From positions 1,943,810 through 2,007,809 of the forward strand of contig VLJF02000034.1 in assembly GCA_008360975.2 (NCBI GenBank): 64,000 nucleotides of DNA, written 5' to 3'. Under the pieces are notes generated by a model. That model was not told where the DNA came from. It searched no databases and was given only the letters and a program-made list of their open reading frames with translations. Positions 550 to 63,650 of this stretch are shown piece after piece (position 1 is the first letter of the stretch; every line of letters begins with the position of its first letter). Both the position numbers and the translations under genes were made by a program. The stretch comes from Lichenostomus cassidix. Lineage: Eukaryota > Chordata > Aves > Passeriformes > Meliphagidae.

Positions 550-3500
550 CCCCCAAGGAGCAGCAGAAGGCTGAAGCCACAGAACCCCTAAAATCCACCA
601 AGCCTGGCCAGGAGGAGGAAGGAAACCCCAAAAGCAAAGGGCCTGGAGGGGCTGCGGGAGATGGCAAAGGTGGGCTTTTTGGGGTTTTTTTGGGGTTTTT
701 GGGGGGAATTTGGGGTTTTTTGGGGGATTTGGGGATTTGGGGGGATTTGGGGTGGGATTTGGGTGGAGTTTGGGGTTTTTTGGGGGATTTTGGGTTTTGG
801 GGATTTGGGGATTTGGGGGGAGATTTGTGGGGTTTGGGTTTGGGATTTGGGGATTTGGGGTTTTGGGATTTGGGGATTTGGGATTTGGGATTTGGGGATT
901 TGGGGATTTGGGATTTGGGGTTTGGAGATTTGGGGATTTGGGATTTTTGGGGTTTGGGATTTGGGGTTTTGGGGATTTGTGGGGTTTGGGTTTTGGGGAT
1001 TTGGGGTTTGGGATTTTGGGGATTTGGGGATTTGGGGATTTGGGGTGGGATTTGGGTGGAGTTTGGGGTGTTTTGGGGGGGATTTGGGGATTTTGGTGTT
1101 TTGGGGATTTGGGGTTTGGGATTTGGGGATTTGGGGATTTGGGATTTGGGGATTTGGGGATTTGGGGATTTGGGGTTTTTGAGGGGGATTTGGGGTTTTT
1201 GGGGTTTTTTTTTGGGGGGATTTGGGGGAGATTTGTGGGGTTTGGGGAAATTCAGGATTTTGGGGAGATTTGGGGGATTTTGGGGTTTTTTGGGGTGGGA
1301 TTTGTGAGGTTTGGGTGGAATTTGGGGTTTTTGGGCAGATTTGGGGGTTTTTGGGGAGATTTTGGGGTTTTTGGGGTTTTTAAATCAGTTTATTTGGGGT
1401 TTCCTGGTTGCTCAGTGGGATTTTTGGGGTAATTTTGTGGATTTTGGGTCTCAGGGAAGGAGAAGAAGACTCATTGCTTTGGGATTTTCACTGGAATTTT
1501 GGGATTTTCAATGGGATTTTGGGGTTTTTATTGGGATTTTGGGATTTTTTGGGGGTTTTTTGGGGTTTTTTAAATCGGTTTGATTTGGGGTTTTTTCCTG
1601 GGTGTTCATTTGGATTTTTGGAGTGAATTTTTGGGATTTTGGGTCTCAGGGAAGGAGAAGAAGCCTCATTACTGTGGGAAATTAATGGGATTTTGGCTTT
1701 TTTTTGGGGTTTTTTTGGGTTTTTTTGGGGTTTTTTCAATCGGTTTGATTTGGGGTTTTTTCCTGGGTGTTCATTTGGATTTTTGGGGTGAATTTTTGGG
1801 ATTTTGGGCTCTCAGGGAAGGAGAAGAAGCCTCATTGCTTTGGGAAATCAATGGGATTTTGGGGTTTTTTATTGGGATTTTGGGGTTTTTTGGGGTTTTT
1901 TCAATCAGTTTGATTTGGGGCTTTTTCCTGGGTGTTCATTGGGATTTTTGGGGTGAATCTTTGGGATTTTGGGTCTCAGGGAAGGAGAAGAAGCCTCATT
2001 GCTGTGGGAAATCAATAGGATTTTGGGTTTTTTTATTGGGATTTTGGGGGTTTTTGGGGTTTTTTTAGGGTTTTTTACATCGGTTTGATTTGGGGTTTTT
2101 TCCTGGGTGCTCATTGGGATTTTTGGGGTGATTTTTAGGGATTTTGGGCTCTCAGGGAAGGAGAAGAAGCCTCATTACTGTGGGAAATCAATAGGATTTT
2201 GGGGGTTTTTATTGGGATTTTGGGGATTTTTTGGGGTTTTTTTGGGGTTTTTTCAATCGGTTTGATTTGGGGTTTTTTCCTGGGTGTTCATTTGGATTTT
2301 TGGGGTGAATTTTTTGGGGATTTTGGGTCTCAGGGAAGGAGAAGAAGCCTCATTGCTGTGGGAAATCAATAGGATTTTGGGGGTTTTTATTGGGATTTTG
2401 GGGATTCTTTGGGGTTTTTTTGGGGTTTTTTCAATCGGTTTGATTTGGGATTTTTTCCTGGTTGCTCAGTGGGATTTTTGGGGTGATTTTTGGGGATTTT
2501 GGGTCTCAGGGAAGGAGAAGAAGCCTCATTGCTTTGGGAAATCAATGGGATTTTGGGGTTTTCAATGGGATTTTTGGGATTTTGGTTTTGGGTTTTTTGG
2601 GTTTTTTCAAATCAGTTTGATTTGGGGTTTTTTCCTGGTTGCTCAGTGGGATTTTTTGGGTGAATTTTTGGGATTTTGGGCTCTCAGGGAAGGAGAAGAA
2701 GCCTCATTGCTGTGGGAAATCAATGGGATTTTGGGTGTTTTTATTGGGATTTTGGTTTTTGGGAGTTTTTTAGATTTTTTTAAATTGGTTTGATTTGGGG
2801 TTTTTTCCTGGGTGCTCAGTGGGATTTTTGAGGTGAATTTTTGGGATTTTGGGCTCTCAGGGAAGGAGAAGAAGCCTCATTGCTTTGGGAAATCAATGGG
2901 ATTTTGGGGTTTTCAATGGGATTTTTGGGTTTTCAATGGGATTTTTATTGGGATTTTGGGGGTTTTTGGGGTTTTTTTGGGGTTTTTTACATCGGTTTGA
3001 TTTGGGTTTTTTTCCTGGGTGCTCAGTGGGATTTTTGGGGTGAATTTTGGGGATTTTGGGCTCTCAGGGAAGGACGAGAAGCCTCATTGCTGTGGGATTT
3101 TCACTCGAATTTTGGGATTTTCAATGGGATTTTGGGATTTTTTAGGGTTTTTTCAATCGGTTTGATTTGGGTTTTTTCCTGGGTGTTCATTTGGATTTTT
3201 GGGGTGAATCTTTGGGATTTTGGGTCTCAGGGAAGGAGAAGAAGCCTCATTGCTATGGGAAATCAATAGGATTTTGGGGTTTTTTATTGGGATTTTGGGA
3301 TTTTTTTAGGGTTTTTTAAATCGGTTTGATTTGGGGTTTTTTCCTGGGTGCTCAGTGGGATTTTTGGGGTGAATTTTTGGGATTTTGGGTCTCAGGGAAG
3401 GAGAAGAAGCCAGCCCTGCTGGAAGGAGCTCCCCTGAGGCTCAAACCCCGCAGTGTCCATGAGCTCTCCGTGGAGCAGCAGCTTTACTACAAGGAGATCA

Positions 3501-62559: not shown

Positions 62560-63650
62560 AGCCGCGCCCGGAAGCTCCGGAGGGAAGCCGGGAGGGAAAA
62601 ATCCCCAAAATTCCCCAAAAATCCCCAAAATTCCCCAAATTCCTCCCCGAAAATCCCCTCCGGGAGCCCCAGATCCCCCGAAATTCCCTCCGGAACTCCT
62701 AAAATTCCCCCCGGGAGCCCAAAATCCCCGAAATTCCAAAAAAAATCCCTAAAAATTCCCCGAAAATCCCCAAAAAATCCCCGAAATCCTCCCAACAATT
62801 CCCTCCGGGAGCCCAAAATCCCCCGAAATTCCCCCGAAATCCCCCTCGGGACCCCCAAAATCCCCCCGGGAGCCCAAAAATCCCCGAAATTCCCCAAAAT
62901 CCCCTCCGGAACCGCCGGAAATTCCCTTCGGGAGCCCAAAAATCGCCTCCGGAATTCCCAAATTCCCCTCAGGAATTCCCGGGATTTTCCGGGATTTAAC
63001 TCCCAAATATTCCCGGAAATTCCCGATTTTCCTCAGCGCTTTATCCCCTCAGGACTCCCGAAATTCCCTTTTTTTGGGGATTTTTTGGGATTTAACTCCC
63101 CGAAATTCCCGATTTTCCCGCTGCGATTTCCAACCAAATATTCCCCAAATTCCATCCGGATTTCTCTCCTTCCATTTCCCCCTTTTTCCCCATTTTTTCC
63201 TTGAATTCTTTTTAATTTCCCCCTTTTCCTTCAATTTTCCAGGAATTTTTTTTCCTTTTTCTCCCTTTTTTTCCTTTTTCCCCCATTTTTCCCTCACTAT
63301 TTCTTCCTAGATTTTTAAAATTTTTTCCCCTGGGTTTTTTTTGGTCAATTTTTCCAGTTTTTTTCCTACTTTCCCCCACTTTCGCTCCCCATTTTTTCCC
63401 CATTTTTCCTCATTTTCCCATCCCTATTTTTCCCTAGATTTTTTTCAGTTTTTCCCCGGGTTTTTTTTCCCCATTTTCCCTCATTTTTTCCCCATTTTTT
63501 TGCCACTTTCACTCCCATTTTCCCCCCATTTTTCTCATCCCTATTTTTCCCTAGATTTTTTAAAATTTTCCCCCAAATTTCCCCATTACATTTCCCCATT
63601 ATTTTATTTTATTTTATTTTATTTTATTTTATTTTATTTTATTTATTAAT
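62560..63650. repeat. Arrays upstream of the second TRAPPC14 copy
   Basis: Inverse counterparts of 42867-43865: ccccgaaattcc units (62600-63060), then ttttcccccattttt units, then an (ATTTT)n tract at about 63600-63646. No gene. Confidence 0.85.

Follow-up and report, generated by a model that had tools for sequence, protein, structure and literature searches.

The window analysed here is a stretch of 64,000 nucleotides from the bird Lichenostomus cassidix (Meliphagidae; GenBank assembly GCA_008360975.2, contig VLJF02000034.1, positions 1,943,810–2,007,809 of the forward strand), and the positions given below are counted from its first base. It contains five neighbouring gene models, TAF6, VMO1, LAMTOR4, TRAPPC14 and GAL3ST4, with 30 exons, and 19 of the 60 exon edges are present in extra tandem copies (81 copies in total, 1–12 per edge, median 4). 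The exon-derived part of the copies measures 15–74 bp by edge median, with an overall median of 41. Copied edges comprise 11 of 25 donors, 5 of 26 acceptors (16 of 51 splice edges altogether) and 3 of 5 stop-codon ends, the last with copies that extend into the 3' flank; none of the four start codons is copied. The difference between donors and acceptors is not significant (P 0.07). By gene, copied edges number 9 of 18 in TAF6, 3 of 6 in VMO1, 6 of 22 in TRAPPC14 and 1 of 6 in GAL3ST4. LAMTOR4 is a negative case: its introns contain arrays, yet none of its eight edges was found to be copied by either BLASTN or pattern search. The original prediction, made from the sequence alone, had described at least 16 such edges with 1–12 extra copies each, on donor, acceptor and stop-codon sides, and the present counts bear this out. 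The exon part that it gave as 15–90 bases narrows to the range above, and the four genes that it named do carry copies, although it missed LAMTOR4, the fifth gene, which has none.

All 25 introns of the gene models have GT-AG borders, and every coding sequence is open. Human proteins served as a guide in exon finding; the gene identities rest on Pfam matches and on alignments to chain and structure sequences. Matches above the Pfam cut-offs were obtained for TAF6_C, VOMI, TRAPP14_N, TRAPP14_C and Gal-3-0_sulfotr. Residues 2–493 of 501 of TAF6 align to the TFIID subunit 6 chain, and VMO1 aligns to 1vmo. No Pfam match above threshold was found for LAMTOR4, the identity of which rests on the alignment of residues 1–98 of 99 to the Ragulator LAMTOR4 chain. 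For TRAPPC14, a sequence search of the PDB gave no relative at an E-value of 0.001. From these near full-length chain alignments, the TAF6 and LAMTOR4 proteins look intact. The donor of TRAPPC14 exon 1 at 42454 was chosen among several candidates, and no edge array depends on that choice. Gene content, composition and repeat style indicate that the locus probably lies on a bird dot microchromosome.

Edge copies were sought by BLASTN of each exon against its flanking noncoding stretch (up to 4 kb) on the same strand only. The threshold was taken from one mononucleotide shuffle per edge, which gave a shuffled maximum of 23.8 bits. This value was exceeded at 23 of the 60 edges, and the 18 of these with matches within 6 bp of the exon border were kept. 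The five edges that were dropped (the acceptors of TRAPPC14 exons 9 and 4, the donor and start of TRAPPC14 exon 1, and the stop of GAL3ST4 exon 3) have matches at least 24 bp from the edge. Unanchored matches at the TAF6 exon 9 stop (2) and the VMO1 exon 1 donor (18) were also dropped. The nineteenth edge, the donor of TAF6 exon 1, was missed by BLASTN and found by a pattern allowing up to five substitutions in 25 bp, which gave no match in 200 mononucleotide shuffles; its exon part of 15 bases was set by eye. Copy numbers are as assembled, and their exact values may carry assembly error. The authentic acceptor is the last in its array and the authentic donor the first, an order that the geometry demands. 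All features are listed in Table 1. Additionally, diverged copies that were not counted were seen by eye near the donor of TRAPPC14 exon 9 (~32788), the acceptor of TAF6 exon 8 (~15830) and the 5' untranslated region of GAL3ST4 (~55430–55530). A perfect 23-bp copy of the interior of TRAPPC14 exon 9, from 33 bp inside its acceptor, lies without the edge in the upstream intron (33844–33866) and is perhaps the remnant of an older edge copy.

Table 1. Gene models, copied exon edges and arrays within coding exons, with positions in the window.
Feature	Positions	Strand	Description	Basis
TAF6	3396–17628	+	nine exons; gene start lies upstream of the first exon in the window	gene model
VMO1	19151–23450	-		gene model
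LAMTOR4	24941–30414	+	4 exons	gene model
TRAPPC14	31345–42810	-	3' end of exon 1 uncertain	gene model
GAL3ST4	56109–61119	+		gene model
TAF6 exon 1 (first in window) acceptor edge	1455–3411	+	10 extra copies; acceptor and 14–16 exon bases	BLASTN
TAF6 exon 1 donor edge	3524–5271	+	10 extra copies; 15 exon bases plus GTGAGTGACC	pattern search
TAF6 exon 3 donor edge	9382–10259	+	5 extra copies; 37–38 exon bases	BLASTN
TAF6 exon 4 acceptor edge	10544–11692	+	12 extra copies; 29–32 exon bases; AG intact in all	BLASTN
TAF6 exon 4 donor edge	11776–12218	+	2 extra copies; 68 exon bases	BLASTN
TAF6 exon 6 donor edge	13327–13504	+	1 extra copy; 53 exon bases	BLASTN
TAF6 exon 7 acceptor edge	14078–14779	+	4 extra copies; two inner break points (22 and 57 exon bases)	BLASTN
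TAF6 exon 7 donor edge	14843–15680	+	5 extra copies; 37–54 exon bases	BLASTN
TAF6 stop-codon end	17599–17899	+	4 extra copies; final 30 coding bases with TGA	BLASTN
VMO1 stop-codon end	18975–19207	-	1 extra copy; 57 bases	BLASTN
VMO1 exon 2 acceptor edge	20503–21052	-	1 extra copy; 36 exon bases	BLASTN
VMO1 exon 1 donor edge	22405–23323	-	5 extra copies; 66–74 exon bases	BLASTN
TRAPPC14 stop-codon end	31169–31394	-	1 extra copy; ~50 bases	BLASTN
TRAPPC14 exon 11 acceptor edge	31471–31657	-	1 extra copy; 34 exon bases	BLASTN
TRAPPC14 exon 9 donor edge	33016–33411	-	2 extra copies; 34 exon bases	BLASTN
TRAPPC14 exon 8 donor edge	33904–34903	-	6 extra copies; 42–48 exon bases	BLASTN
TRAPPC14 exon 5 donor edge	36801–37879	-	6 extra copies; 32–38 exon bases	BLASTN
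TRAPPC14 exon 3 donor edge	39405–39862	-	3 extra copies; 27–41 exon bases	BLASTN
GAL3ST4 exon 2 donor edge	57609–59586	+	2 extra copies; 84 and 51 exon bases	BLASTN
Array in TRAPPC14 coding exon 3	39907–40038	-	TGTCCCC/GGGGACA motif as in introns; 19 of 19 spacings divisible by 3	spacing count
Array in TRAPPC14 coding exon 1	42544–42634	-	21-bp units	spacing count and arm comparison

Tandem repeats make up most of the intron sequence. At a score of at least 50, Tandem Repeats Finder (TRF) assigns to arrays 90% of the bases in introns and 17% of those in coding sequence; at a score of at least 100, the shares are 86% and 11% (10.8%), respectively. As a null model, the array mask at score 100 was rotated along the window, 300 times per statistic. 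Rotation predicts that 72% of coding bases lie under arrays, compared with the actual 10.8%, and that 39 of 58 edges (range 15–53) are crossed by 15 bp on either side, compared with 9. TRF often stops short of the authentic copy, so that 9 is a low count; nevertheless, all 19 copied edges together are still fewer than the 39 predicted. Rotation would place about 15 exons entirely within arrays, whereas of the 29 exons above 30 bp in length none is so placed. Where no edge array was recorded, at 35 intron edges (14 donors and 21 acceptors), the median distance from exon to array is 6 bp for donors and 13 bp for acceptors at score 50, and 24 bp and 16 bp at score 100. When the arrays are rotated within their intron, the exon is touched in 79–90% of cases, compared with only 1 of the 14 donors and 1 of the 21 acceptors in the real arrangement. 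The arrays fill the introns nearly to the core splice signals: constrained sequence is avoided, and the edges are not attractive.

Arrays are also found inside coding exons, where their spacing largely follows the codon. Short-range repeat spacings are divisible by 3 in 42 of 49 cases in coding exons and in 1151 of 3104 cases in introns, the runs not being independent of each other. By exon, the counts are 19 of 19 in TRAPPC14 exon 3, 10 of 10 in TAF6 exon 9, 4 of 4 in VMO1 exon 1, 5 of 6 in TRAPPC14 exon 1, 2 of 3 in TAF6 exon 8, 2 of 5 in GAL3ST4 exon 3, and 0 of 1 in each of TRAPPC14 exons 6 and 10. The edge arrays have no register: their spacings divide into 23, 30 and 28 by residue modulo 3. 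The array of TRAPPC14 exon 3 lies within an in-frame stretch of 78 residues, the flanking blocks of which fall at Pfam profile positions 189 and 192, with two positions between them. Spacings of GTCCCC in this exon are divisible by 3 in 11 of 11 cases, compared with 321 of 621 in introns. No lengthening relative to the family is seen in TRAPPC14 exon 1, the array of which lies in a linker with about 93 Pfam profile positions. Among the papers listed in literature searches aimed at coding arrays of dot chromosomes, none was recognised as such from titles and abstract openings, which is no proof of absence.

The arrangement is probably explained by repeated duplication throughout the genes combined with selection for a readable protein, which would place the tolerated copies at exon edges by geometry. 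Short stretches would be tandemly duplicated over and over across the genes (sequence stuttering), with slippage, template switching and unequal exchange as candidate mechanisms at the DNA level, and exons would be struck as well. Selection would then purge duplications that shift the frame, double a whole exon or break a splice site. A duplication straddling a single edge would leave one complete exon while the other copy fell in the intron or the 3' flank, and so could be tolerated; further rounds of duplication would build an edge array. The extra copies would be bystanders, skipped in splicing by exon definition, with only the authentic copy joined to a full exon that has the other splice site. 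Since the introns consist nearly entirely of arrays and the coding repeats are in register, duplications seem to occur throughout, with the protein-changing ones selected away. Moreover, copies of exon sequence can be tolerated only where they reach an edge, because a copy within the exon alters the protein and a copy of the whole exon adds an exon. The premise of the original prediction, that ordinary minisatellites should be indifferent to exon borders, overlooks this geometry, in which an exon-preserving duplication straddles exactly one edge. Its suggestion of a mutational process beginning at edges is not required, nor is it supported by the comparison with random placement that the prediction itself proposed (39 of 58 edges crossed after rotation, 9 in reality). 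Its other suggestion, selection that leaves the frame undisturbed, agrees with the register of the coding repeats, the lack of register in the edge arrays and the absence of exons inside arrays. Its statement that the arrays run only into introns is contradicted by those inside TRAPPC14 coding exons 1 and 3.

The number of straddling arrays was compared with a family model, in which one unit per array family was placed randomly in the intron and its flanking exons, protein-changing placements were excluded, and each edge was counted once. Fifteen of 49 intron families straddle an edge. With full units and all arrays of the intron collapsed to one unit, 16.0 are expected (95% range 10–22). The count is therefore compatible with random placement and selection, without proving it.

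Several results weigh against duplication throughout the genes followed by selection. The family model expects only 8.0 straddling families (4–13) when the array in question alone is collapsed and 5.8 (2–10) at the present intron length, compared with the 15 seen. The expectations for present introns, own array collapsed and all arrays collapsed fall to 4.6, 6.4 and 12.9 with units at three quarters of their length, and to 3.0, 4.2 and 8.9 with units halved. An excess is thus obtained in seven of the nine combinations of intron and unit length (P below 0.02), five-fold in the least favourable, and is absent only with collapsed introns at full or three-quarter units. The collapsed-intron figures are favoured by the presumption that introns were still short when the arrays began, a condition that the explanation needs. 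The copies are also shallow: by edge median, the inner break at each of the 19 edges lies 15–74 bp into the exon, and the mean depth relative to the largest possible overlap is 0.23, compared with 0.5 expected (n 19, z -4.0). Later internal slippage may have inflated the units, in which case the true relative depth would be larger but the expected straddling count lower. As for the codon register, repetitive stretches of protein tend to give multiples of 3 in any case, and the GTCCCC motif itself favours a 9-bp spacing, as its count in introns indicates. TRAPPC14 and TAF6 supply 40 of the 49 coding spacings, and the motif count in TRAPPC14 exon 1 is 5 of 6 divisible by 3, with 5 of 7 in the other arm of the inverted pair described below. 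Additionally, 692 of the 2931 frame windows (240 bp each) taken from introns are also open, so that the open frame across the coding arrays is weak evidence of translation.

Some of these results would suit duplications that start at or near exon edges through a process linked to transcription or replication (an R-loop, a base-composition step or splicing-linked damage), with edges as mutational hot spots. Both the straddling excess and the shallow inner breaks, which keep to the same range regardless of exon length, point in this direction, as does a strand polarity of the arrays: in 20 of 25 introns, the 5' half has a greater excess of G on the sense strand than the 3' half (Wilcoxon P 0.0005). 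Edge families are, however, more easily recognised than intronic ones through their exon part, which inflates their share. Real arrays cross edges far less often than rotated ones, and they do not pile up at the uncrossed edges. LAMTOR4 has arrays in its introns with no copied edge, stop-codon ends are copied at three of five although they have no splice site, and donors and acceptors do not differ significantly. An origin of the duplications at or near the edges is considered unlikely.

The shallow depth may alternatively reflect the removal of deep copies as exon-like, or a process tied to edges. Microhomology does not account for it: exon sequence at the inner breaks is no more similar to the arrays of the adjacent intron than other exon positions are (mean rank 0.499 at 19 edges), so that the shallow breaks are not explained by resemblance of the break site to intron repeats. 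It is conceivable, though rather doubtful, that breaks at 15–74 bp in exons of 98–399 bp mark a real limit, either because decoy edges are tolerated only below the length required for exon definition or because the duplications were started by an edge-tied process.

The signals in the extra copies are largely preserved. All 28 extra acceptors retain their splice signal, as do 44 of the 47 extra donors, where a register shift accounts for one of the three exceptions; all six extra stop-end copies retain the stop codon. Unique differences from the real exon fall on codon positions 1, 2 and 3 in 24, 16 and 44 cases, respectively. Of these 84, 42 are synonymous, compared with 26% expected; this comparison skipped 3 of the 81 copies, and a single run of ten differences in the TRAPPC14 stop-end copy may be an unresolved indel. 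These features would suit retention of the copies for a function, whether as decoys that modulate splicing or as splice sites or short exons used alternatively. At edges with two or more copies, however, changes private to a single extra copy show no significant bias (12 of 27 synonymous compared with 32% expected, P 0.22), so that no constraint is demonstrated for the copies themselves. The bias is significant only for shared differences (13 synonymous and 10 not, P 0.02) and could have been inherited from the real exon, in which three of four private differences are synonymous. Most simply read, the shared differences were shaped by past constraint on the real exon, and the copies are drifting. 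A coding function of the copies was accordingly rejected. Divergence between copies is lower over the 12 bases on the exon side (0.050) than over the 12 on the intron side (0.119), which is weak evidence for a protected exon-derived part, since slippage and misalignment affect the intron side. Use of an extra site instead of the real one would produce a premature stop in 59 of 65 cases and keep the frame in the other six; six stop-end copies and the ten acceptor copies of TAF6 exon 1, the upstream exons of which are outside the window, were set aside. Most copies are therefore harmless only if they are ignored in splicing, and a retained function is very improbable.

Positions 48580–49079 are a gap of 500 N, flanked by a pair of inverted arms (42540–48579 and 58293–63926) with identities of 97.7% and 93.5% in the two main blocks. 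The arms carry GAL3ST4 exon 3 and TRAPPC14 exon 1 twice. As the right contig, if flipped, would overlap the left, the pair is likely to be an alternative haplotype that was misjoined, or possibly a true inverted duplication. The copies of TRAPPC14 exon 1 (the right one at ~63656–64000, cut by the end of the window) differ by indels of 21 and 3 bp and five substitutions, with the frame kept, and those of GAL3ST4 exon 3 by 15 substitutions (10 synonymous) with no indel in 792 bp. Of the noncoding indels in two aligned segments, 8 of 32 are divisible by 3. The arms differ by indels of up to 84 bp and may represent alleles, paralogues or misjoined contigs. By eye, an ATCGAT-rich minisatellite is present between GAL3ST4 and TRAPPC14 in both arms (43950–44570 and 61895–62524), and an array of ATATCGCGAC-type units with a self-complementary core (56690–57400) occupies a large part of GAL3ST4 intron 1. 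The stretches 50870–51330 and 53540–53740 are poor in repeats and resemble promoters or 5' exons by eye, the first with CACGTG motifs.

The gap and the inverted arms show that this region was difficult to assemble, but an origin of the arrays as collapsed, expanded or misjoined repeats is scarcely credible, given that substitutions distinguish copies within arrays, which argues against simple assembly duplication, that the TAF6 exon 7 acceptor copies have two different inner breaks, that both GAL3ST4 edge copies have counterparts in both arms (by eye, in a region that aligns at 93%), and that Hron et al. 2026 (PMC12954441) verified equivalent arrays of chicken PHF8 in raw nanopore reads.

Ordinary coding and intronic minisatellites consist of tandem copies with imperfect units, and the coding ones keep the reading frame. 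The present locus differs in that 86–90% of the intron sequence of five adjacent genes lies in arrays. Hron et al. (PMC12954441) described "exon stuttering", or sequence stuttering, on chicken dot chromosomes, in 236 introns of 115 genes, 190 of the introns being on dot chromosomes. The exon part there is 20–187 bp long with a median of 36, similar to the 41 found here, and is present in 1–44 copies with a median of 4, as in this window; over 90% of the sources are no more than 1 base away from the exon border. Both cases consist of partial edge copies, with a donor or acceptor, spread through an adjacent intron rich in simple repeats. In the window, 18 of the 23 edges matched by BLASTN have matches within 6 bp of the border, and the introns are dominated by repeats to the extent given above. 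The report leaves the mechanism open, naming replication stress and DNA structure or meiotic conversion, and states that no repeats were seen crossing into exons. In contrast, arrays lie in register inside TRAPPC14 coding exons 1 and 3 here, and stop-codon ends are copied too. Class membership is kept despite the exon arrays, because the confinement of repeats to introns is an observation of that report rather than its stated definition. TAF6, TRAPPC14 and LAMTOR4 are not named in its main text. The phenomenon is thus already published, and this locus is a further case of exon stuttering.

A parallel is provided by the "mirages" of the amphioxus Adh3 and globin genes (PMC3087553), which are likewise minisatellite-like tandem duplications of exon-intron boundaries on the donor or acceptor side. 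They show haplotype differences in copy number, and reverse transcription PCR suggests that normal splicing is undisturbed. The mirages concern a few genes of a cephalochordate, and the section consulted describes no introns that are arrays nearly throughout.

The window adds five adjacent genes, resolved base by base, to an instability published in 2026. New here are a test of edge preference at base level, a test of codon register, the arrays in coding exons, the copied stop-codon ends and the depth limit, and the comparison offers a simple test of edge-started mutation against selection. The arrays in codon register suggest that the process seems to reach proteins too, as in the 78-residue stretch of TRAPPC14. 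With as many as 12 near-identical additional acceptors or 10 additional donors in a single intron, the locus sets similar splice sites in natural competition, which can be used to test exon definition directly. If the depth limit is real and reflects the tolerance of splicing, the arrays would record the smallest recognisable exon in nature.

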